From Thermoplasmata archaeon (GTDB taxonomy: Archaea; Thermoplasmatota; Thermoplasmata; Thermoplasmatales; Thermoplasmataceae), in NCBI GenBank assembly GCA_021793945.1, contig JAJYRT010000095.1, positions 1 through 6,956 on the forward strand: 6,956 nt of DNA, given 5' to 3'. Positions 1 through 6,956 of this stretch are shown one piece after another (the first letter of the stretch is position 1; the number at the start of each line of letters is the position of its first letter). Under the pieces are notes generated by a model. The model was given only the letters and a program-made list of their open reading frames with translations, was not told where the DNA came from and did no database searches. The translations under genes were made by a program, and so were the position numbers.

Positions 1-1137
1 AGCGTGTGGCTGCTGCAATGGATCCGCAACCGGATAAAGAAGAACCGCAACCTCATAGCACTGTTCATTGGCGACACGGGATCAGGGAAATCCCTGTCAT
101 CCATACGGCTTGCCGAGAGGGTTGACCCCAATTTCTCAGTGGACAGGATCGTGTTCACCGTGAAGGATTTCCTTGCGCTGGTGAACCAGGGCCTTCCTCC
201 AGGGTCGGTCATAGTGTTTGACGATGCCGGGCTGGGAATAAACGCCAGGTTGTGGCAGGAGATGTCTGCCAGGGTATTTGGGATGCTGACGCAGGGATTC
301 AGGTACAAGCAGATCCTCACGTTCATCACGGTGCCGGACGAGACGTTCATCGAAAGACAGAGCAGGAAACTGGTGCACATACGGTTTGAATCAACGGATG
401 TGCAGGGGCTCATGAAGATGAAACTGCTTTCAAGGAACACGTTCGATCCCGAGCGTCCCCTTGGAAAGTTCCCGAGGATCCACAGGGGGATATCGGAGAT
501 AAAGGTCATGATGGTCAAGTTCCAACTTCCCACCAAGGAGTTGTGGGAGAAATATGAGGCAAAGAAGAAGGAGTACATGGAATCGAGGTTCAGGGAGTTC
601 CAGGAGGAACTGGAACTGCTGAACGGGGACAGGTTGCTGATAAAGAATGGAATGCCTGCCGTATCGGTACAGTGTGACGAGTGCGGCTACGAGTGGGATT
701 ACGGGGGACACAGGAAGGTTGCCCAGTGCCCCAGCTGCAGCCACAGGATCTACATAGCGGACATGGAGGAAAAGGAGGAAGCGGGAGTGAAGGTGAAGTG
801 CAGGCATTGCGGGTATGCATGGACGTATACAGGCGGTGCCAAGCGCACTGTGTGCCCGAACTGCGAACAGCACGTCAACGTGGTTAAAGACGTTGCGGGA
901 ACCATGCAGGAGGATCCCTTCGATCCTATGAACACGCCGTACAGGCCGGGAATGACAAAGGAGGAGATATTCGACCTCATGGCGGAGAGCATGATCCGCA
1001 AGGGCAATAAGATCACGCCTGAAATGAAGGACCTGATGGAGAGGCTTGCAGAGGGGGTGGCAAAGCATGGGGAGAAGAAGTTGGAGGACGACGGCGACAG
1101 GAAGAAGGGGGAAAGCAAGGATGATAGCCAGGAATGA
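1..1137 (+). CDS. P-loop ATPase with two C-terminal zinc ribbons (Zot-like / archaeal mobile-element type), 5' end probably missing
   Basis: The frame is open to the left edge. The first possible start in view is GTG at 4, with no visible ribosome site, so the true start may lie upstream. Numbering from that GTG, Walker A is GDTGSGKS (23-30) and Walker B is SVIVFDDAG (68-76). A segment ARLWQ...LTQGFRYKQILTFITVPD follows (81-112). This order resembles Zot-like/packaging-type P-loop ATPases common on archaeal viruses and plasmids, from family memory only. Residues 177-206 are highly charged and probably helical or coiled coil. Two zinc ribbons follow: C224/C227/C242/C245 and C266/C269/C284/C287. 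The tail (about 355-377) is Lys/Asp/Glu-rich. Likely role: ATP-driven DNA handling, packaging or transfer for the element, with the ribbons binding DNA or a partner. The ATPase call is firm; the specific job is inferred. It is more GC-rich than the A/B genes downstream. Confidence 0.85.
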   Translation, partial: SVWLLQWIRNRIKKNRNLIALFIGDTGSGKSLSSIRLAERVDPNFSVDRIVFTVKDFLALVNQGLPPGSVIVFDDAGLGINARLWQEMSARVFGMLTQGFRYKQILTFITVPDETFIERQSRKLVHIRFESTDVQGLMKMKLLSRNTFDPERPLGKFPRIHRGISEIKVMMVKFQLPTKELWEKYEAKKKEYMESRFREFQEELELLNGDRLLIKNGMPAVSVQCDECGYEWDYGGHRKVAQCPSCSHRIYIADMEEKEEAGVKVKCRHCGYAWTYTGGAKRTVCPNCEQHVNVVKDVAGTMQEDPFDPMNTPYRPGMTKEEIFDLMAESMIRKGNKITPEMKDLMERLAEGVAKHGEKKLEDDGDRKKGESKDDSQE

Positions 1138-1150
1138 TGGCATGCCGGGC

Positions 1151-1171
1151 GGCATGTGCCACTCACATGCC
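1151..1171. repeat. Perfect 8-bp inverted repeat after the ATPase gene
   Basis: GGCATGTG (1151-1158) pairs with CACATGCC (1164-1171) across a 5-base loop. The self-complementary octamer GGCATGCC lies just upstream at 1139-1146, immediately after the ATPase stop. No T-run follows the stem, so it is not a classic archaeal terminator. It could be a protein-binding site, an RNA-stabilising hairpin or part of a replication or recombination site. Confidence 0.6.
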
Positions 1172-1214
1172 AGCCACTCGGAAGCCACAATACCAATAGA
1201 AAATGATGGGAAAT

Positions 1215-1230
1215 GGCATGTTGTGATGCC
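1215..1230. repeat. Second small GGCAT/ATGCC inverted repeat
   Basis: GGCAT (1215-1219) pairs with ATGCC (1226-1230) across six bases. It is short on its own, but it repeats the GGCATG word seen at 1139 and 1151 (and as CATGCC at 1166-1171), which suggests a cluster of related sites rather than one chance hairpin. Confidence 0.35.
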
Positions 1231-1433
1231 GAAGCCCTATTATTATATACACATGATTCAAGCGGCGATCCGGGGTCGATTTTCCAGTCGCTTTAAATAC
1301 CGGAGAATCGGCAACAAAGTTGAATTGTCCAAAAACCACCTGAGAAGAAAGTCCACATCATTACAGGAAACCGGAAATGGAGGCTTCTGCTAGTAAGAGT
1401 GATAGATGTCGACCAAATTTGAGGGTAGCAACG

Positions 1434-1441
1434 TTTAAATA
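1434..1441 (+). promoter_or_regulatory. Archaeal TATA box of A1 (leaderless promoter)
   Basis: TTTAAATA ends 21 bases before the A1 ATG at 1463. That spacing puts the expected transcription start at or within a few bases of the start codon, consistent with leaderless mRNA. No Shine-Dalgarno-like sequence precedes the ATG. The A2 gene has the same arrangement. Confidence 0.7.
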
Positions 1442-1462
1442 AATTATCTGCATGATTTATTA

Positions 1463-2887
1463 ATGAACCATGTAAGAATCGCTATTATTAGCGTTCTGAC
1501 CGTTGCGTTGCTATCGCCTGTCACGGTTCAAGCTGAGTTATTCCAATCTCCCTCTCATTCGTATAATTTAAGCAACTATTATTTAACGGTCGACGGAAAT
1601 AACGTGGTGATAAGCTATGGTGGGAATCTACTCTTGGAAAACTGGCAATATTACGTTAGCAACAACAACAGTTCTGAGATTTACCAGCATTTATTAGATA
1701 TAAATGTGAATGTCTCAAACAATGGGCAATTCGTAGTTATGTCTATAACGATGAGTAACCGGATGATACGGGTTTACGAGAATTACTACGTTCTTAATGA
1801 TACACTTGGAACCAGCATCGTCATTACCAATCTTTTCGCCGGAAACATAACTCCGTTAGCCGTACTTGATGCTCAACAATTCAAGAATAATACTCTTTCT
1901 CTCATTAACGTAAATCAAAGTTCCATTGAATTACAGGATTCTGAGTTTTTAATTCAAAACGTGAGTCGCGAACCCTATCTTGGAGCTACCATGGGGGGTT
2001 ACTCCATATTCTGGAACCAAGCAGCTGGCTTAATGGGACCAGCAATTCTTAAGAGATCTGCCCAAGGGAATAACATTGTTCTTTCCATGGGGGAGATAAC
2101 ACTTCTTGAAAACGCTACAGAGTCAATAAATTTAGCTAGCCAATACTCTGGAGTAAATCTAGATAACTCACCTGGACAAACGCCATTTCCAGTGTCAAAC
2201 TCACCGTCCTACATTTGGAACGGAAACCAGATTGTGAGCCAGATCGTTCAAACTGCTATGGGTCCTCTTGGACCTAATACAAACGCCGTTGCGCAATATA
2301 TGTGGTACTCGTCCTCCGCTACTGGCCCGTATTACGTTTATCAGGTAGTCGAAACGATATCTTTGACTGGTACGAGCACTGGAGAAAGTCAGACTTCCTA
2401 TATTTATTTAGTGCAAGACTACTTTGAGAACCACACGAACAATGTACCGAGCGCTATGCAAACTGTTGTCAACTTGCTTATAGACGTTTTGAATGCTTTC
2501 GGTATACCGCTTCCTAACCCTTATGGTCTCATTCCGATGTCAAATCCCTCACCAACTTCAGGAACTAACACTTATACCATTTCGCACTCTGGTTCGTACA
2601 CGGCCTACGACGCCTACATGTGTGCAAGATTCGGTTTGGATTGCCAACCATCCTATGGAGCTGTCAGTTATCATTACGGATTCTTAAATCTATATACCCA
2701 AACTGTTGACGAGTTCGGTTTTAGTGCCAAAATAGTTAACGAGTATGGGATCGGTGGAAGTGTTAATAACCCTGCCTATAACTACTATGATTACTCAGTA
2801 CAGTACTCTATCTTTGAAAGTTCCAATACCCATGCTATCTACGTGGGAAGCAATAACCTATACTTTAACCTGGCTGAGAATGTCTAA
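1463..2887 (+). CDS. A1: secreted, Asn/Ser/Tyr-rich protein of unknown function, paralogue of A2
   Basis: Unrecognised family; 474 aa. The ATG at 1463 is chosen because it opens a clear signal peptide (hydrophobic core about 6-19, probable cleavage after TVQA at 24) and sits at leaderless distance from a TATA box. The mature protein appears beta-rich, with many N-x-S/T sequons (for example N35, N69, N84, N112, N128, N166, N217), as expected for an exported glycoprotein. An N-terminal domain (about 25-227) ends with GEITLLENATESI, matching FGPITLMKNETYSI in A2. The C-terminal domain (about 275-455) contains YYVYQVVE, YIYLVQDYFEN and SYHYGF blocks that have counterparts in A2. A hydrophobic, Gly/Pro-containing segment lies at about 329-350. 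C387 and C394 are the only cysteines and could form a disulfide. There is no C-terminal membrane anchor. B1 follows after 10 bases. Function unknown: surface component, virion-like protein or secreted effector are all possible. Confidence 0.85.
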   Translation: MNHVRIAIISVLTVALLSPVTVQAELFQSPSHSYNLSNYYLTVDGNNVVISYGGNLLLENWQYYVSNNNSSEIYQHLLDINVNVSNNGQFVVMSITMSNRMIRVYENYYVLNDTLGTSIVITNLFAGNITPLAVLDAQQFKNNTLSLINVNQSSIELQDSEFLIQNVSREPYLGATMGGYSIFWNQAAGLMGPAILKRSAQGNNIVLSMGEITLLENATESINLASQYSGVNLDNSPGQTPFPVSNSPSYIWNGNQIVSQIVQTAMGPLGPNTNAVAQYMWYSSSATGPYYVYQVVETISLTGTSTGESQTSYIYLVQDYFENHTNNVPSAMQTVVNLLIDVLNAFGIPLPNPYGLIPMSNPSPTSGTNTYTISHSGSYTAYDAYMCARFGLDCQPSYGAVSYHYGFLNLYTQTVDEFGFSAKIVNEYGIGGSVNNPAYNYYDYSVQYSIFESSNTHAIYVGSNNLYFNLAENV

Positions 2888-2888
2888 C

Positions 2889-2892
2889 GGAG
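2889..2892 (+). promoter_or_regulatory. Ribosome binding site of B1
   Basis: GGAG lies five bases before the ATG at 2898, directly after the A1 stop codon. It supports 2898 as the start rather than the in-frame ATG at 2880 (inside A1) or GTG at 2892, and suggests that B1 is translated from the A1 transcript. Confidence 0.55.
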
Positions 2893-2897
2893 TGGTT

Positions 2898-3437
2898 ATG
2901 AGAAGAGTATTAAGAGTGGCGTTGGTTGTGCTGTCGGTCTTGATCGTCCTGGCCGCTTTCACCCTTTACGAGAATACAACAAGGCCACTTGTTATTTCCG
3001 TAGAACCAGTGAACAATGAGGCCGCATTTCTTTCGGGTCTTGGAACGACAAACCAGTACTACAATACCTCAGTTTCAAACCACAACCTGACCATTATTTG
3101 TCGGTTCAATGCGCCTGACAGAGAAGTGAGCAATGCGATTGAGATTTACCTGTTCTTAAACATCGAGATATTCAACGGATCGGTTTTGGCCGGTCCACTT
3201 AGTCTTGGGATATTAGTAATGCTGGACAATATGACATACAATGGCTCTGCACTTCCGGTTCAATTTGTTTCTGCTTCTGTATCCCAAGGAGCATTTAACG
3301 TTCAATATACCACAGTTTCTCAGGCGAGCCTAAATCTGACTAAGAACGTCAATGCGAATTTTACCATGGAGCTTTACAGTGTTCTTGGTCCATATCATTA
3401 CCTGGCAAAGACAATAGAAATAAGTATACATCGTTAG
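2898..3437 (+). CDS. B1: small membrane-anchored or secreted protein of unknown function, partner of A1
   Basis: Unrecognised family; 179 aa. The ATG at 2898 is preferred because it follows GGAG and opens directly into MRRVLR plus a hydrophobic segment (about 7-22). That segment is either an uncleaved N-terminal anchor or a signal peptide, with the rest outside the cell. The outer part looks beta-rich and carries about eight N-glycosylation sequons (N26, N56, N63, N93, N111, N115, N146, N154). A second moderately hydrophobic stretch (about 96-109) may be a buried strand. Near the C terminus GPYHYLAKTIEISI matches the GPYH...AKTLSSKFNVDI block of B2, and N-x-F-T-M-E before it resembles B2's NMTFWINVT. 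It starts 10 bases after A1, so the two are probably one operon. A role as membrane partner, anchor or immunity factor for A1 is inferred only. Confidence 0.8.
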   Translation: MRRVLRVALVVLSVLIVLAAFTLYENTTRPLVISVEPVNNEAAFLSGLGTTNQYYNTSVSNHNLTIICRFNAPDREVSNAIEIYLFLNIEIFNGSVLAGPLSLGILVMLDNMTYNGSALPVQFVSASVSQGAFNVQYTTVSQASLNLTKNVNANFTMELYSVLGPYHYLAKTIEISIHR

Positions 3438-3448
3438 ATTGCCCAAAG

Positions 3449-3453
3449 TTTTT
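3449..3453 (+). terminator. Possible T-run terminator after B1
   Basis: A TTTTT run lies 12 bases after the B1 stop. Short T-runs are sufficient for termination in many archaea. No strong hairpin precedes it, so support is modest. Confidence 0.35.
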
Positions 3454-3472
3454 CACAAAATATTCGGTAAAA

Positions 3473-3643
3473 TCAGGTTCTTCTCACTTTCATGTTGGTA
3501 ATTTTATCAAACACCTTCAAGAGAGCTGAGATATCACCCTCGAGGGCCTGAGGATCCACGTTCCTGGTTTTCGATGTACCGGTTGTTATGCCTGATTTGC
3601 GGATGATTCGGCAAATGCCGGTAAATCGTGAAACAACTTCCAT
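3473..3643 (-). CDS. Possible small ORF, 56 aa, minus strand
   Basis: On the minus strand an ATG at 3643 opens 56 codons ending with TGA at 3475-3473. The product begins MEVVSRFTGICRIIRKSG, then has a polar stretch KTRNVDPQALEGDISALL and a basic end KVRRT. It has no signal peptide. The composition looks like a soluble, basic protein, unlike the flanking secreted genes. The A2 TATA region read on this strand (GTATTTAAG at about 3696-3688) could drive it with a leader of about 20 bases. It may be a small DNA-binding protein, the leftover 3' end of a longer gene such as a transposase, or chance. I do not recognise the family. Confidence 0.35.
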   Translation of the reverse strand: MEVVSRFTGICRIIRKSGITTGTSKTRNVDPQALEGDISALLKVFDKITNMKVRRT

Positions 3644-3656
3644 GAAATAAAACGGA

Positions 3657-3671
3657 AGGCGAAATTTGCCT
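3657..3671. repeat. Near-palindrome between the minus ORF and the A2 promoter
   Basis: AGGCGAAATTTGCCT has matching outer arms AGGC/GCCT around a palindromic AAATTT core with one extra G. It lies 17 bases upstream of the A2 TATA box, a position suited to an operator. A shorter inverted repeat, CGGCA/TGCCG, lies at 3609-3620. Confidence 0.35.
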
Positions 3672-3688
3672 CATGTGCTAAGAAATAC

Positions 3689-3695
3689 TTAAATA
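3689..3695 (+). promoter_or_regulatory. Archaeal TATA box of A2 (leaderless promoter)
   Basis: TTAAATA, preceded by the purine-rich GAAATAC (a BRE-like context), ends 23 bases before the A2 ATG at 3719. The geometry matches the A1 promoter and implies leaderless transcription, so the A2-B2 pair probably has its own transcription unit. Confidence 0.7.
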
Positions 3696-3718
3696 CAAAT
3701 TGTGTCGTATATTACTGC

Positions 3719-5521
3719 ATGAATGGTAAAGTTGCGATCACGGTATCAATTTTTGCAGCTGTTCTAATGCTTTTACCCGGAATAAGCATGGCAACGCCTA
3801 TACAGAGTAATGTTCACCAATACCAAGTGGGAAACGAAAAGGTCACTATCAAAGGTAAAGACATTTTTGTCACCTTCGGAACTGAATCCTACAGAGTTAA
3901 TTGGAAGATATTTGAACTACAGAACGCCAGCCTTAGGATGATTCATTTTTCATCCTTTAAAATTAGAAGAATAAAGAACAGCCTGCAAAATTCTGCAGTT
4001 GTGATGAGGAACAGTCCGAACGTGAAAACCGCAGAGATATATTCATTCCAAAAAGGATCTATCGATGCAAGTGTTGCCGTGAAAAATCTCAGGGCCCATA
4101 ACACAAGTTATTACATTGTCTTTCAACTGGGTTTAAATCCAGTTCATACTGTTTACCTTAATGGCAATATGCCACTTAAAATAAATACAGTTACGACACA
4201 GGTGGGACGGAACCCCTCAAGCAATTTGATACCATCGAATGACTGGAGCGTTACGATAGGAGGCTTAAAGGTAAGCTGGCGCAATGAGATGTCAATGTTT
4301 CACATTGGGGGCATCGTAACCAATGCCACAGTCTCCAAGGTCTCTCTTCCATTCGGACCAATAACATTGATGAAGAATGAAACCTACTCGATTGATCCGA
4401 TAATGAGCCCACAGATGCCTATTCCCTGCCCAGGATGCGGCGGCGGAGGGGGCTCCGGTACCCCTCCACAACTATCGTCCTTTCAGGTCAGCACGACATA
4501 CTCAAATACAATATCCGGAGCCACCAACATTCAGATGACGGCAAACATTTACACTCTGGGATCGGGTGGCGATACATTGAAAATGTATGTTGTTAATGCG
4601 CTTAATGGGCAATGGATTCAAATTAGGTCCTGGAATCCGGGCTCAACTGGCACCTACACAGAAACCTGGTCAGCGACTCTTGGAGTGTACTCATACTTTG
4701 TTGCTTACATTTACAATTCATATGGTGGCGAAAGCTTGTCGTCTGGGCATTCATTTAATGTTTTCACAGAGTTTCCTTCTGCTGGATCCAATGGCAATAT
4801 TATTCCAGGCCAAACGTACTCATCAAAACCCGTCTATAATTCACAAGGTTCATTAGTTGGTTATCTAACTTTGCAGACAACATCCGATTTTAACTACCCC
4901 ATATCTTCCACAAGCTATCCTTACATGAGACTGGAAACCTCATTTCTGCGAGCCGATTCCTCAAGCAGCTATTGGGTAAATAGTGTCTATCAGAACTTCA
5001 GATGGACAGGAAACCAGATTTCGACACCAACTTCACAAAACTGGGTTTATTTCAAAGTTCAGGATGAGTCTTACCAAAACTATCAGAATGGTACCTGGCA
5101 ACTGGGAGAAGAAGCTCTCTACTCTGCATTGACAGTTTTGGTTACAGTTGAGTCCCTTGGGACCGGCGCAATCATGGCGGCGCTGTACCCGATATTTTTC
5201 CACCAGATAAGTCAATCCCTGCCCACCGGATATAATGATATAAATGTTTCCCATAACGCTGGGTTCATTGCCACCAAAAATGGGGTTTACTTCAATCCTT
5301 TGGGATACAGCTACAACTATGGATTCTCCTTCAAAGATTCATACGTATTCAGTTTCCATCAAAACATGCAATTTGTACAGGCCATTAGCACGAGCTACAC
5401 TCCTTCCAATGCTATGCTCAACTACTTCGAGTATTCCGCTGGATTCACGATTTCCAATGGTGGGCAAGGACTCTTCGGTGGTTCATTATCGGAACCTATA
5501 TATGTGGCGGAGTATGCATGA
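3719..5521 (+). CDS. A2: secreted multidomain protein with Ig-like insert, paralogue of A1
   Basis: Unrecognised family; 600 aa. The ATG at 3719 opens a signal peptide (hydrophobic core about 5-20, probable cleavage after SMA at 25) and lies at leaderless distance from a TATA box. Residues 26-227 align collinearly with A1: VNWKIFEL (W62) with ENWQYYV (W61), GGLKVSW with GGYSIFW, and FGPITLMKNETYSI with MGEITLLENATESI. A linker with CPGC (C237, C240) and six consecutive glycines follows. Residues 250-349 look like an Ig/fibronectin-like beta-sandwich absent from A1. The C-terminal domain (about 370-580) again matches A1: SYWVNSVYQ, NWVYFKVQDESYQN, SYNYGFSF. A long hydrophobic Gly/Ala-containing stretch (about 466-495) interrupts it. 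There is no C-terminal anchor. B2 follows after 10 bases. Function unknown; an exported surface, virion-like or effector role is inferred. Confidence 0.85.
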   Translation: MNGKVAITVSIFAAVLMLLPGISMATPIQSNVHQYQVGNEKVTIKGKDIFVTFGTESYRVNWKIFELQNASLRMIHFSSFKIRRIKNSLQNSAVVMRNSPNVKTAEIYSFQKGSIDASVAVKNLRAHNTSYYIVFQLGLNPVHTVYLNGNMPLKINTVTTQVGRNPSSNLIPSNDWSVTIGGLKVSWRNEMSMFHIGGIVTNATVSKVSLPFGPITLMKNETYSIDPIMSPQMPIPCPGCGGGGGSGTPPQLSSFQVSTTYSNTISGATNIQMTANIYTLGSGGDTLKMYVVNALNGQWIQIRSWNPGSTGTYTETWSATLGVYSYFVAYIYNSYGGESLSSGHSFNVFTEFPSAGSNGNIIPGQTYSSKPVYNSQGSLVGYLTLQTTSDFNYPISSTSYPYMRLETSFLRADSSSSYWVNSVYQNFRWTGNQISTPTSQNWVYFKVQDESYQNYQNGTWQLGEEALYSALTVLVTVESLGTGAIMAALYPIFFHQISQSLPTGYNDINVSHNAGFIATKNGVYFNPLGYSYNYGFSFKDSYVFSFHQNMQFVQAISTSYTPSNAMLNYFEYSAGFTISNGGQGLFGGSLSEPIYVAEYA

Positions 5522-5522
5522 T

Positions 5523-5528
5523 GGGGGG
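5523..5528 (+). promoter_or_regulatory. G-rich ribosome binding site of B2
   Basis: GGGGGG lies three bases before the ATG at 5532 and just after the A2 stop. It supports 5532 over the in-frame ATG at 5514, which lies inside A2, and suggests translation from the A2 transcript. Confidence 0.45.
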
Positions 5529-5531
5529 ACA

Positions 5532-6134
5532 ATGAGATTAATCTATAAGATAGCTGCAATAGTCACAGTACTATCTTTTTTCTTTTCCTTCACCGCAATG
5601 AGCCTGTACAGTGAACCAGCCACCATAGGACTGAGCCCAGACAAGACACCCTATAATCTGCTTTCATCGTATGAATACAATGATTCAAATTACAACTACA
5701 AAGTTGGATACCTGAATTTCAGTGGTTATGGAAATAGGGTTAGCTATGTTTATGTGGTATTCCCTTTGCATGGAAACAAGATGGTGAACCAGAATTATAC
5801 CGGACCGTTCCTTTACTTTTCTATTTTTAAGGTTAGTCAAAAGACAAGTTTTCCTTTCTCCAATACTTCTTTGTTCGCAAGCATCCAGATACATCCAGAG
5901 GCATATCTCACATCTTCAATGAACAGTTTGACTCCTCAGACCTTACCATATTCCTTAAGCAGTTTAGTTCAAGGTTCGTTTGCAAATGAGCCTGTGGACA
6001 TTGGAAATATGACCTTTTGGATCAATGTCACCATCACCCCCGTTTTCAACATAGGCCCTTATCACATTTCCGGAGGAGCTAAAACATTATCATCAAAATT
6101 CAACGTAGATATATCCAACACCACGAAATTATAG
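5532..6134 (+). CDS. B2: small membrane-anchored or secreted protein of unknown function, paralogue of B1
   Basis: Unrecognised family; 200 aa. The ATG at 5532 is chosen because it follows a G-rich site and opens MRLIYKI plus a hydrophobic segment (about 7-24), which is an anchor or signal peptide. The rest is polar, Tyr/Asn/Ser-rich and probably beta-structured outside the cell, with several sequons (N50, N62, N88, N111, N159, N165, N196) and no cysteine. Similarity to B1 is weak overall but co-linear at the C terminus: NMTFWINVT...IGPYH followed by AKTLSSKFNVDI against NANFTMELY...LGPYH followed by AKTIEISI. It begins 10 bases after A2, exactly the spacing between A1 and B1. It is followed by a hairpin and the integrase promoter region. 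Partner, anchor or immunity roles are conjecture. Confidence 0.8.
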   Translation: MRLIYKIAAIVTVLSFFFSFTAMSLYSEPATIGLSPDKTPYNLLSSYEYNDSNYNYKVGYLNFSGYGNRVSYVYVVFPLHGNKMVNQNYTGPFLYFSIFKVSQKTSFPFSNTSLFASIQIHPEAYLTSSMNSLTPQTLPYSLSSLVQGSFANEPVDIGNMTFWINVTITPVFNIGPYHISGGAKTLSSKFNVDISNTTKL

Positions 6135-6139
6135 ATAAA

Positions 6140-6168
6140 GCGTTAACTTTTCAATTAAAACTTAACGC
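6140..6168. terminator. 12-bp imperfect hairpin after B2, possible terminator
   Basis: GCGTTAACTTTT (6140-6151) pairs with AAAACTTAACGC (6157-6168) with one mismatch and a five-base loop. It starts six bases after the B2 stop and contains a TTTT run on the plus strand, so it could terminate the A2-B2 transcript. Each arm carries the CGTTAA(G/C)TTTT motif that recurs at 6227, so it may instead be, or also be, a binding site for the integrase or a regulator. Confidence 0.5.
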
Positions 6169-6170
6169 CC

Positions 6171-6178
6171 TTTATATA
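6171..6178 (+). promoter_or_regulatory. Strong TATA box upstream of the integrase
   Basis: TTTATATA follows the hairpin. Initiation would be expected near 6200-6206, leaving a leader of about 50-60 bases before the integrase, unlike the leaderless A genes. The leader contains AAGGAG (6212-6217) and the hairpin at 6219-6240. Confidence 0.55.
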
Positions 6179-6218
6179 CCAGGGATGGGGATGTGTACAC
6201 AGATCACCCACAAGGAGA

Positions 6219-6240
6219 GGCAAAACCGTTAAGTTTTGCC
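6219..6240. repeat. Perfect 8-bp inverted repeat upstream of the integrase
   Basis: GGCAAAAC (6219-6226) pairs with GTTTTGCC (6233-6240) across the six-base loop CGTTAA. The right half contains the 11-mer CGTTAAGTTTT (6227-6237), identical to the complement of 6157-6167. It may be an operator, an integrase arm site or an RNA hairpin in the leader. Confidence 0.6.
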
Positions 6241-6258
6241 AGTATCTTAACATGATCA

Positions 6259-6819
6259 TTGAGAGCCATAGTGAGATCTTCCGAGAAGTTTGAGGTCAGG
6301 ATCCTCAGGCCAATGGAATTTGAGAAATTGAGGGATGCCATGGATGTGGATACCATGAAGATCTGCACCGCACTCCTTCTGACAGGGATGAGGTATGCCG
6401 AGCTATGCAGATTCAGGGAGAACCCTGACTGGCTTGACGGGAAGTTTGTTCACCTACCAAGAGGATCCATGCTCAAGGTCAAGGCAAAGCAGAGGGAAAG
6501 GGCAATAAGGCTGAGCGATATGGGCAAGACACTTGTGCCCGACTTGTTCCAGTCATTATATTCATTGCCTGAACTTCCCGCCCTGGACATGAAACTGAGA
6601 AGGTTATCGAAAAGGATCCTCGAGGGAGCTCCTGTCAACAACAAGGCCTTCAGGAAGACCTGGGAGTCCTGGCTTGTGTTCTATTATCCAGATAAGTCAT
6701 TGCAGATCGCATTGAGCCAAGGGCACACCACGACAACGCAGTATGAGCATTATCTCAATATACCGTTTGACGATGATGATGGGAAAGAAATGAGGAAATG
6801 GGTCGAGGGGTGGGTATGA
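6259..6819 (+). CDS. Compact tyrosine recombinase / integrase (catalytic domain only)
   Basis: Site-specific recombinase that would cut and rejoin DNA through a 3'-phosphotyrosine link, most likely for integration or excision of this element. At 186 aa from TTG 6259 it holds only the catalytic domain. Visible residues: Arg45 in TGMRYAEL; candidate strand Lys73, Lys75 or Lys77; box II as K129-x-x-R132 in NNKAFRKTWESWL, with Lys in the usual His position; His156 in SQGHTTTT; and Tyr165 in EHYL, nine residues after that His as in Xer-type enzymes. RKTWESWLV-YYP and the C-terminal WVEGW are typical of a short euryarchaeal integrase family, so the missing N-terminal domain need not mean truncation. 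TTG 6259 is the first start after an in-frame stop at 6253. GTG 6271 is the main alternative, with a weak TATA-like TATCTTAA at 6243-6250. The stop overlaps the next start as ATGA. Confidence 0.9.
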   Translation: MRAIVRSSEKFEVRILRPMEFEKLRDAMDVDTMKICTALLLTGMRYAELCRFRENPDWLDGKFVHLPRGSMLKVKAKQRERAIRLSDMGKTLVPDLFQSLYSLPELPALDMKLRRLSKRILEGAPVNNKAFRKTWESWLVFYYPDKSLQIALSQGHTTTTQYEHYLNIPFDDDDGKEMRKWVEGWV

Positions 6820-6956
6820 GAAACGCAGACGTTAAAGCGCTTCTGGGCACTTTCAAACATCACAGAATCCTTACCAGGGATCTTCTCTGTTCACTCAATT
6901 CGGAACAACTATCGAACAAACCGATTAGCAGTGCAGGAACCTTTGGAAAGCAATTC
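6816..6956 (+). CDS. Partial CDS, possible DinB-like four-helix protein, cut by the window end
   Basis: The ATG at 6816 overlaps the integrase stop (ATGA) and follows a G-rich stretch (GAGGGGTGGG), suggesting coupled translation. The 47 visible codons stay open to the last base. The product starts MRNADVKALLGTFKHHRIL and continues LTRDLLCSLNSEQLSNKP, then TFGKQF. A long first helix followed by 'L-x-x-L-x-x-E-Q-L' and a Gly-x-Gln-Phe turn resembles the N terminus of DinB/DUF664-type proteins, where a metal-binding His often follows shortly after, here outside the window. This is pattern recognition on a short fragment. It could be another helical protein co-expressed with the integrase. Confidence 0.5.
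   Translation, partial: MRNADVKALLGTFKHHRILTRDLLCSLNSEQLSNKPISSAGTFGKQF

Follow-up and report, generated by a model that had tools for sequence, protein, structure and literature searches.

We found that a 6,956-nucleotide stretch of DNA from a Thermoplasmata archaeon (GenBank assembly GCA_021793945.1, contig JAJYRT010000095.1, positions 1 to 6,956, forward strand), hereafter the window, carries in tandem two copies of a cassette in which the gene for a secreted protein, A, is followed by that for a smaller protein, B, anchored at its N-terminus. In related genomes of Thermoplasmatales, which are acid-loving archaea, the cassette is common and patchily spread, A is paired with a partner, the C-domain of A and B vary jointly, cassettes of the same genome part at DNA breakpoints, and partners are left behind. 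By analogy, this layout is that of polymorphic toxin systems and of the VARTIG modules of Thermococcales, and it points to a candidate archaeal system, so far undescribed, for attack or for recognition.

The ATPase, cassette and recombinase genes of the window all lie on the + strand. The first one (4–1137), whose 5' end is open at the window edge, encodes a zinc-ribbon P-loop ATPase and forms the flank of an integrating element. A1 (1463–2887, 474 aa) is secreted and belongs to a short subfamily without a middle domain; it consists of a conserved N-domain (about aa 27–223, 1541–2131), delimited by BLASTP against A2 and the N-domain profile, and a C-domain (aa 244–474, 2192–2884) that matched the C-domain profile at E 3.9e-45. 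B1 (2898–3437, 179 aa), the N-terminally anchored partner, follows after a gap of 10 bases. The likewise secreted A2 (3719–5521, 600 aa) has an N-domain (aa 32–231, 3812–4411) predicted to fold as a galactose-mutarotase-like beta-sandwich, a middle beta domain absent from A1 (aa 251–350, 4469–4768) and Ig-like by appearance, and a C-domain (aa 365–600, 4811–5518), the portion that varies with B, including a hydrophobic helical stretch (aa 462–493, 5102–5197) with mostly low pLDDT. At the place of the middle domain, a relative gave a sub-threshold match to CARDB (E 0.023). The anchored partner B2 (5532–6134, 200 aa), again 10 bases downstream, is predicted to comprise a helix and a beta-sandwich; fold prediction covered A2 and B2. 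Both A–B gaps contain a G-rich stretch. TATA-like elements at 1434–1440 and 3688–3694, read from the sequence, lie 29 and 31 bases 5' of the A1 and A2 starts, respectively, and may serve as promoters; a TATA-like hexamer occurs near the start of 33 of 50 full-length As, an uncontrolled count that we do not use as evidence. A tyrosine-recombinase-type catalytic domain of 186 aa (6259–6819; PHROG integrase E 1.6e-7, no Pfam match) follows the cassettes, and an inverted repeat, GTTAAG/CTTAAC, is located directly before its gene at 6228–6250. The GC content is about 53–54% in the ATPase gene versus 39–48% across the cassettes.

An earlier note on this DNA had described the two cassettes as diverged copies of one unit, and their coordinates, gene order, + strand and the twofold 10-base gap from A to B were all confirmed. 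The translations also contain the signal-peptide-like start of both As, the hydrophobic N-terminal helix of both Bs and the motif blocks quoted there, including GPYH plus AKT in B1 and B2. BLASTP aligned A1 with A2 at E 8e-9 across the N-terminal 229 aa, and the C-terminal segment alone at E 0.068. When the two were compared as families with hhalign, they matched with a probability of 99.9 (E 7e-36) over 463 columns, with the A2 middle domain as an insertion relative to A1. The profile match that had been proposed as a check is thus significant, and A1 and A2 are homologous along their length. The corresponding match of B1 and B2 gave BLASTP E 0.003 and, as families, a probability of 97.8 (E 6e-12) at full length and 72.7 (E 4e-6) after removal of the membrane helix, while a third set of Bs bridged the B1 and B2 families at 97.1 and 99.5 without the helix, and reversed-sequence controls for the B comparisons reached 0.05 to 4.9. 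Homology is thus supported here as well, less firmly than for the As.

The suggestion that the unit is a candidate undescribed system held up, since the two-gene unit is conserved and falls into no family in Pfam, PHROGs, NCBIfam or PADLOC; these libraries returned no usable match for A or B and no recognized toxin domain in the scanned proteins. A PDB sequence search reached at best E 0.013, to an antibody chain at profile positions 233–302, which we dismissed, and thermopsin, also considered, did not appear in the Pfam scan. A PDB fold search with B2 yielded no match at E 0.001, with VIA Z at most 7.9. Of 52 As, only 2 have a hydrophobic stretch that exceeds shuffled sequences by z 3. A literature search with partial coverage found no toxin–immunity system of Thermoplasmatales.

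At E 0.01, A2 has at least 30 protein relatives among the best-sharing 7991 candidates scored, and A1 has nine; the two relatives that carry an organism name are from Thermoplasmataceae and Thermoplasmatales, and the protein searches with A1 and A2 named no relative from Thermococcales. All 15 loci of a genome search are titled Thermoplasmata, Thermoplasmatales or Ferroplasma. In the order of Ferroplasma acidarmanus Fer1, whose genome carries an A–B cassette (L014), 38 of 117 genomes have an A match (E 1e-5) and 43 a B match (E 0.001). A sample of the phylum gave matches in 19 of 389 genomes, 14 of which are the genomes of the order already found; the other five have only matches weaker than 1e-5, which we took as chance. 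The window and 91 further loci, mostly from metagenome-assembled genomes, hold 71 distinct A ORFs, including the two of the window. Full-length As, defined by a match to the N-domain profile, at least 180 residues after the N-domain and a position away from the contig edge, number 48 outside the window, in 31 genomes with up to five per genome.

Adjacency was counted in the window and 91 of 173 loci, the omitted ones presumably being shorter or overlapping copies, with exclusion of L003, in which A runs off the contig. The earlier note had named the regular occurrence of A without B as a refutation, and this is not the case: a partner stands immediately after 44 of the 48 full-length As. In 32 cassettes this is a B recognized by profile, including the L113 B, which begins at a GTG and contains an early stop; nine more have a partner of the same build (one N-terminal anchor, 204–243 aa) that the B profile missed, so that 41 of the 44 partners carry a single N-terminal anchor, and the remaining three are small multi-span proteins of 110–122 aa with two predicted spans. 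As for the other four As, two are followed by a broken B (L103, L118), the contig of L001 ends past an anchor-like partner start, and L135 has no partner. The median gap from A to B is 5.5 bases (42 pairs, with the L118 fragment included). What is constant about the partner is thus its position, whereas its sequence varies.

The two parts of A differ in how they vary. All 62 N-domains fall into one cluster, and the median normalized similarity is 0.20 for the N-domain versus 0.04 for the C-domain and 0.05 for B. The C-domain profile misses 21 of the 50 full-length As, the two of the window counted among them. Single-linkage clustering nevertheless placed 58 of 65 C-ends in one cluster and the remainder in clusters of 3, 3 and 1, where short As may add N-domain residues; most C-domains are thus one diverging family, not unrelated modules. 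One of the three-member C clusters has the multi-span partners, and the other shares a single B cluster. In partial Mantel tests B correlated with the C-domain at r 0.78 when the N-domain was controlled for, and with the N-domain at r 0.46 when the C-domain was controlled for, or 0.65 and 0.27 on a log scale (42 cassettes, 1000 permutations, each p 0.001; two near-duplicates dropped, the L118 B fragment included). A first run with 23 of 60 cassettes, in which a motif filter had dropped 37, gave 0.81 and 0.43, and both runs contain the effect of shared ancestry. L173 is a particular case: by its N-domain it lies inside the clade of the three As whose partners are multi-span proteins (support 100/99, and 97/85 for its place next to L009), but it differs from these neighbours in having another C-domain and a single-anchor B.

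Breakpoints are visible at the DNA level. One genome holds L160 and L157 on separate contigs, and the two are 98.5% identical from −187 to +742, beyond which no match in A is found; behind its own partner, L160 carries a B that resembles both L157 Bs (68 and 75% at the DNA level). In another genome, L011 and L002 are 93.7% identical from −124 to 1368 with no DNA match thereafter, although a distant similarity persists between the two C-domains and between the two Bs. L151 and L152, which share a contig, are 84.9% identical across the 5' part and 69.8% beyond. The C-end of the window's A2 together with B2 is 84.7% identical to a stub and B at L100, where the stub starts within the C-domain.

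Consistent with such exchange, Bs also occur away from a full-length A. We distinguished 80 B-type ORFs: 30 directly after a full A, 7 in tandem further down, 10 after a partial A, 16 with no A upstream in an available stretch of 1500 bases or more, 4 close to the end of a contig, 3 after a contig-cut A, 8 short pieces and the 2 of the window. Among the 16, L154 is preceded by an ORF with an A-like end, and the ORF of L165, at 425 aa, is probably unrelated. L105 has a second stub with B behind a full cassette, and displaced partners and C-end stubs are present at L160, L105, L100 and other loci. Partial As (10) outnumber broken Bs (2), a difference that we do not count in favour of immunity since A is about three times longer.

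By analogy with known systems, A may be a secreted antagonist that acts on the membrane, with B as the partner that confers immunity, a reading to which we give about an even chance. The pairing, the joint variation, the breakpoints, the match of partner type to C type and the Bs and stubs left behind speak for it. This reading comes close to the role of an effector with a membrane partner that the earlier note had listed, with a layout like that of polymorphic toxin systems and VARTIG. A would leave the cell through its signal peptide, as judged from the sequence, and its conserved N-domain, whose fold is widespread among proteins that bind or convert sugars, would bind the surface of a neighbouring cell. 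The variable C-domain, beta-rich with the hydrophobic helical stretch, would then harm the membrane of close relatives, and B, fixed outside the producer's own membrane, would neutralize the matching C-domain. Exchange of the C-domain and B gene behind a conserved promoter and N-domain would create new specificities; the breakpoints are observed, and both the event and its direction are what we infer from them. Old Bs could remain after an exchange, and some cassettes may travel as cargo in a slot of an integrating element. The whole scheme, a polymorphic antagonist–immunity system in which A attacks the bare membrane of relatives, B protects on the outer face, and C-domain and B are exchanged partly via integrating elements, is tentative, and we hold it with slightly less than even confidence.

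Joint variation does not prove immunity, because it would be expected of any B-binding C-domain. Further points against the antagonist reading are that the scans recognized no toxin domain, that a few full-length As have a broken or missing partner or, as in L113, a B with an early stop, that the hydrophobic stretch rarely exceeds shuffled sequences, that most C-domains form one family, and that most loci come from metagenome-assembled genomes. The pair could instead serve surface recognition or adhesion, with B anchoring A on the producer, the C-domain docking on B and the N-domain presenting a binding face, and with variation for kin recognition or escape from viruses. A secreted A with an anchored partner, the joint variation of C-domain and B, an N-domain fold of the sugar-binding type and several copies per genome all agree with this possibility, which is the main alternative, although we regard it as less likely than the antagonist reading: Bs occur without A and in tandem, three cassettes have multi-span partners, and conservation is found in the N-domain, the outward part, where escape from a receptor would be expected to produce variation.

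SlaA and SlaB of Sulfolobales offer a comparison for a structural envelope unit, in which A would build a coat and B would hold it. A secreted and an anchored protein encoded in one operon-like unit are reminiscent of this arrangement, but occurrence in about a third of the order's genomes (38/117) and several unlike copies per genome are unexpected for a main coat, making this role improbable. A secreted glycan-active enzyme with an accessory partner is more doubtful still; the N-domain fold is known from mutarotases and glycoside hydrolases, but no enzyme family appeared in the scans, and such an enzyme leaves the exchange of the C-half together with its partner unexplained.

The ATPase and recombinase that flank the window's cassettes could point to virion or provirus structural proteins, but this virion-like role, also raised in the earlier note, has hardly any likelihood, as four IMG/VR queries (A1, A2, an A alignment and the ATPase) gave no relative, A and B have no PHROG match below E 0.05, and the recombinase accompanies only 2 and the ATPase 1 of the 91 loci searched. 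L098 has the ATPase, one A–B pair and the recombinase in the same order as the window, and L141 has an A stub with B, the recombinase and a DinB-family gene; in addition, L094 carries a recombinase fragment with stops near A. Relatives of the recombinase occur in 35 of 117 genomes. Fifteen further recombinase sites hold other genes, with no A or B match, and six of them have the ATPase or part of it. Since the other recombinase sites carry differing genes, the window resembles a cargo slot of variable content into which two cassettes have been taken up.

The earlier note had proposed an ancient duplication of a two-gene unit kept on an integrating element. The conserved unit beside an integrase-type gene stands, and a single duplication is less supported. 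In the N-domain tree (midpoint root, long branches flagged, bootstrap not settled), A1 and A2 belong to different well-supported groups, and each has nearer kin in other genomes. Given this separation, and given that L098 and L141 each hold one cassette at the same recombinase, the window pairs are likelier to be two old lineages gathered in one cargo slot than the products of a recent duplication.

Several observations concern the element itself. The fifteen sites (L174–L188), together with window 4–1137 and 6259–6819, represent a recurring integrating element of Thermoplasmatales with a zinc-ribbon ATPase and a short recombinase, and the genes adjoining the recombinase vary between the 15 sites. 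At L177 (2888–4304), a secreted protein of 351 aa that the A profiles missed, but whose signal peptide resembles that of A, is followed by a 111-aa hydrophobic protein; the pair, placed between an ATPase fragment and the recombinase, is perhaps a further cassette type. The DinB-family gene of L141 (5196–5711, Pfam E 1.2e-11) directly follows the recombinase, and a cut ORF at window 6798–6956 resembles it. Upstream of the A stub in L141 (2170–2925) are ORFs that we take to be transposase-like, a placement suggestive of an insertion through which the remainder of A was lost.

Among described systems, the VARTIG modules of Thermococcales are similar in organization. The excerpted text of Makarova et al. 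2021 (PMC8416519) describes a large secreted protein whose N-part is conserved and whose C-end is hypervariable, with smaller proteins encoded behind it, most of them in the membrane, that correspond to the type of C-end, and leaves toxin, immunity and recognition roles open. A–B shares with them this combination of secreted protein and C-matched partners, as well as a patchy spread, short genes resembling the C-end and Ig-like domains. As far as the excerpts go, the authors searched other archaea without a close counterpart and had too few close genomes for placing recombination sites (PMC8416519). A–B differs, on the basis of the same excerpts, in being a constant two-gene unit in another order, in having a recombinase near a few loci and in breakpoints between copies in one genome, unseen by the VARTIG authors (PMC8416519). 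VARTIG is restricted to Thermococcales, whereas the A–B genomes and named records are Thermoplasmatales or Thermoplasmata, and the VARTIG C-terminal motif D[ND]NxxxG[GD] occurs within the last 30 aa of none of the 48 full-length As.

Polymorphic toxin systems (CDI, Rhs and archaeal ones; general background and excerpts of PMC8416519) likewise have a conserved N-part, a variable C-part and a matching downstream partner. A–B has the same features: the 62 clustered N-domains with variable C-ends, of which, however, 58 of 65 are one distant family; a downstream partner that changes with the C-part, as seen in the adjacency (44/48), the partial Mantel value of 0.78 and the breakpoints; and the displaced partners and C-end stubs, a further likeness. 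In contrast, A contains no recognized nuclease or other toxin domain in the scanned proteins, B is anchored outside the cell, and no known delivery apparatus was seen. Sulfolobicins, according to the excerpted text of PMC5733018, are archaeal, acid-stable, membrane-associated and active on close relatives, heterodimeric in S. acidocaldarius, with subunits of about 20–22 kDa. The likeness to A–B is by description only; the small subunits are a difference, and so is the A–B partner, which is predicted to be immunity. Pore-forming colicins have membrane immunity proteins. The hydrophobic stretch in the presumed killing domain and the multi-span partner of three cassettes are reminiscent of them, but no homology was found and the predicted fold is mainly beta.

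Archaeal weapons and self-recognition systems are little known, and A–B shows VARTIG-like logic in a second archaeal order, where the breakpoints in the DNA are sharp, the partner is paired with A and former partners stay behind. Many Thermoplasmatales have no cell wall. Since this holds for many of these organisms and the Fer1 genome carries cassette L014, whether archaea fight their kin with exchangeable secreted proteins is testable with two small genes.
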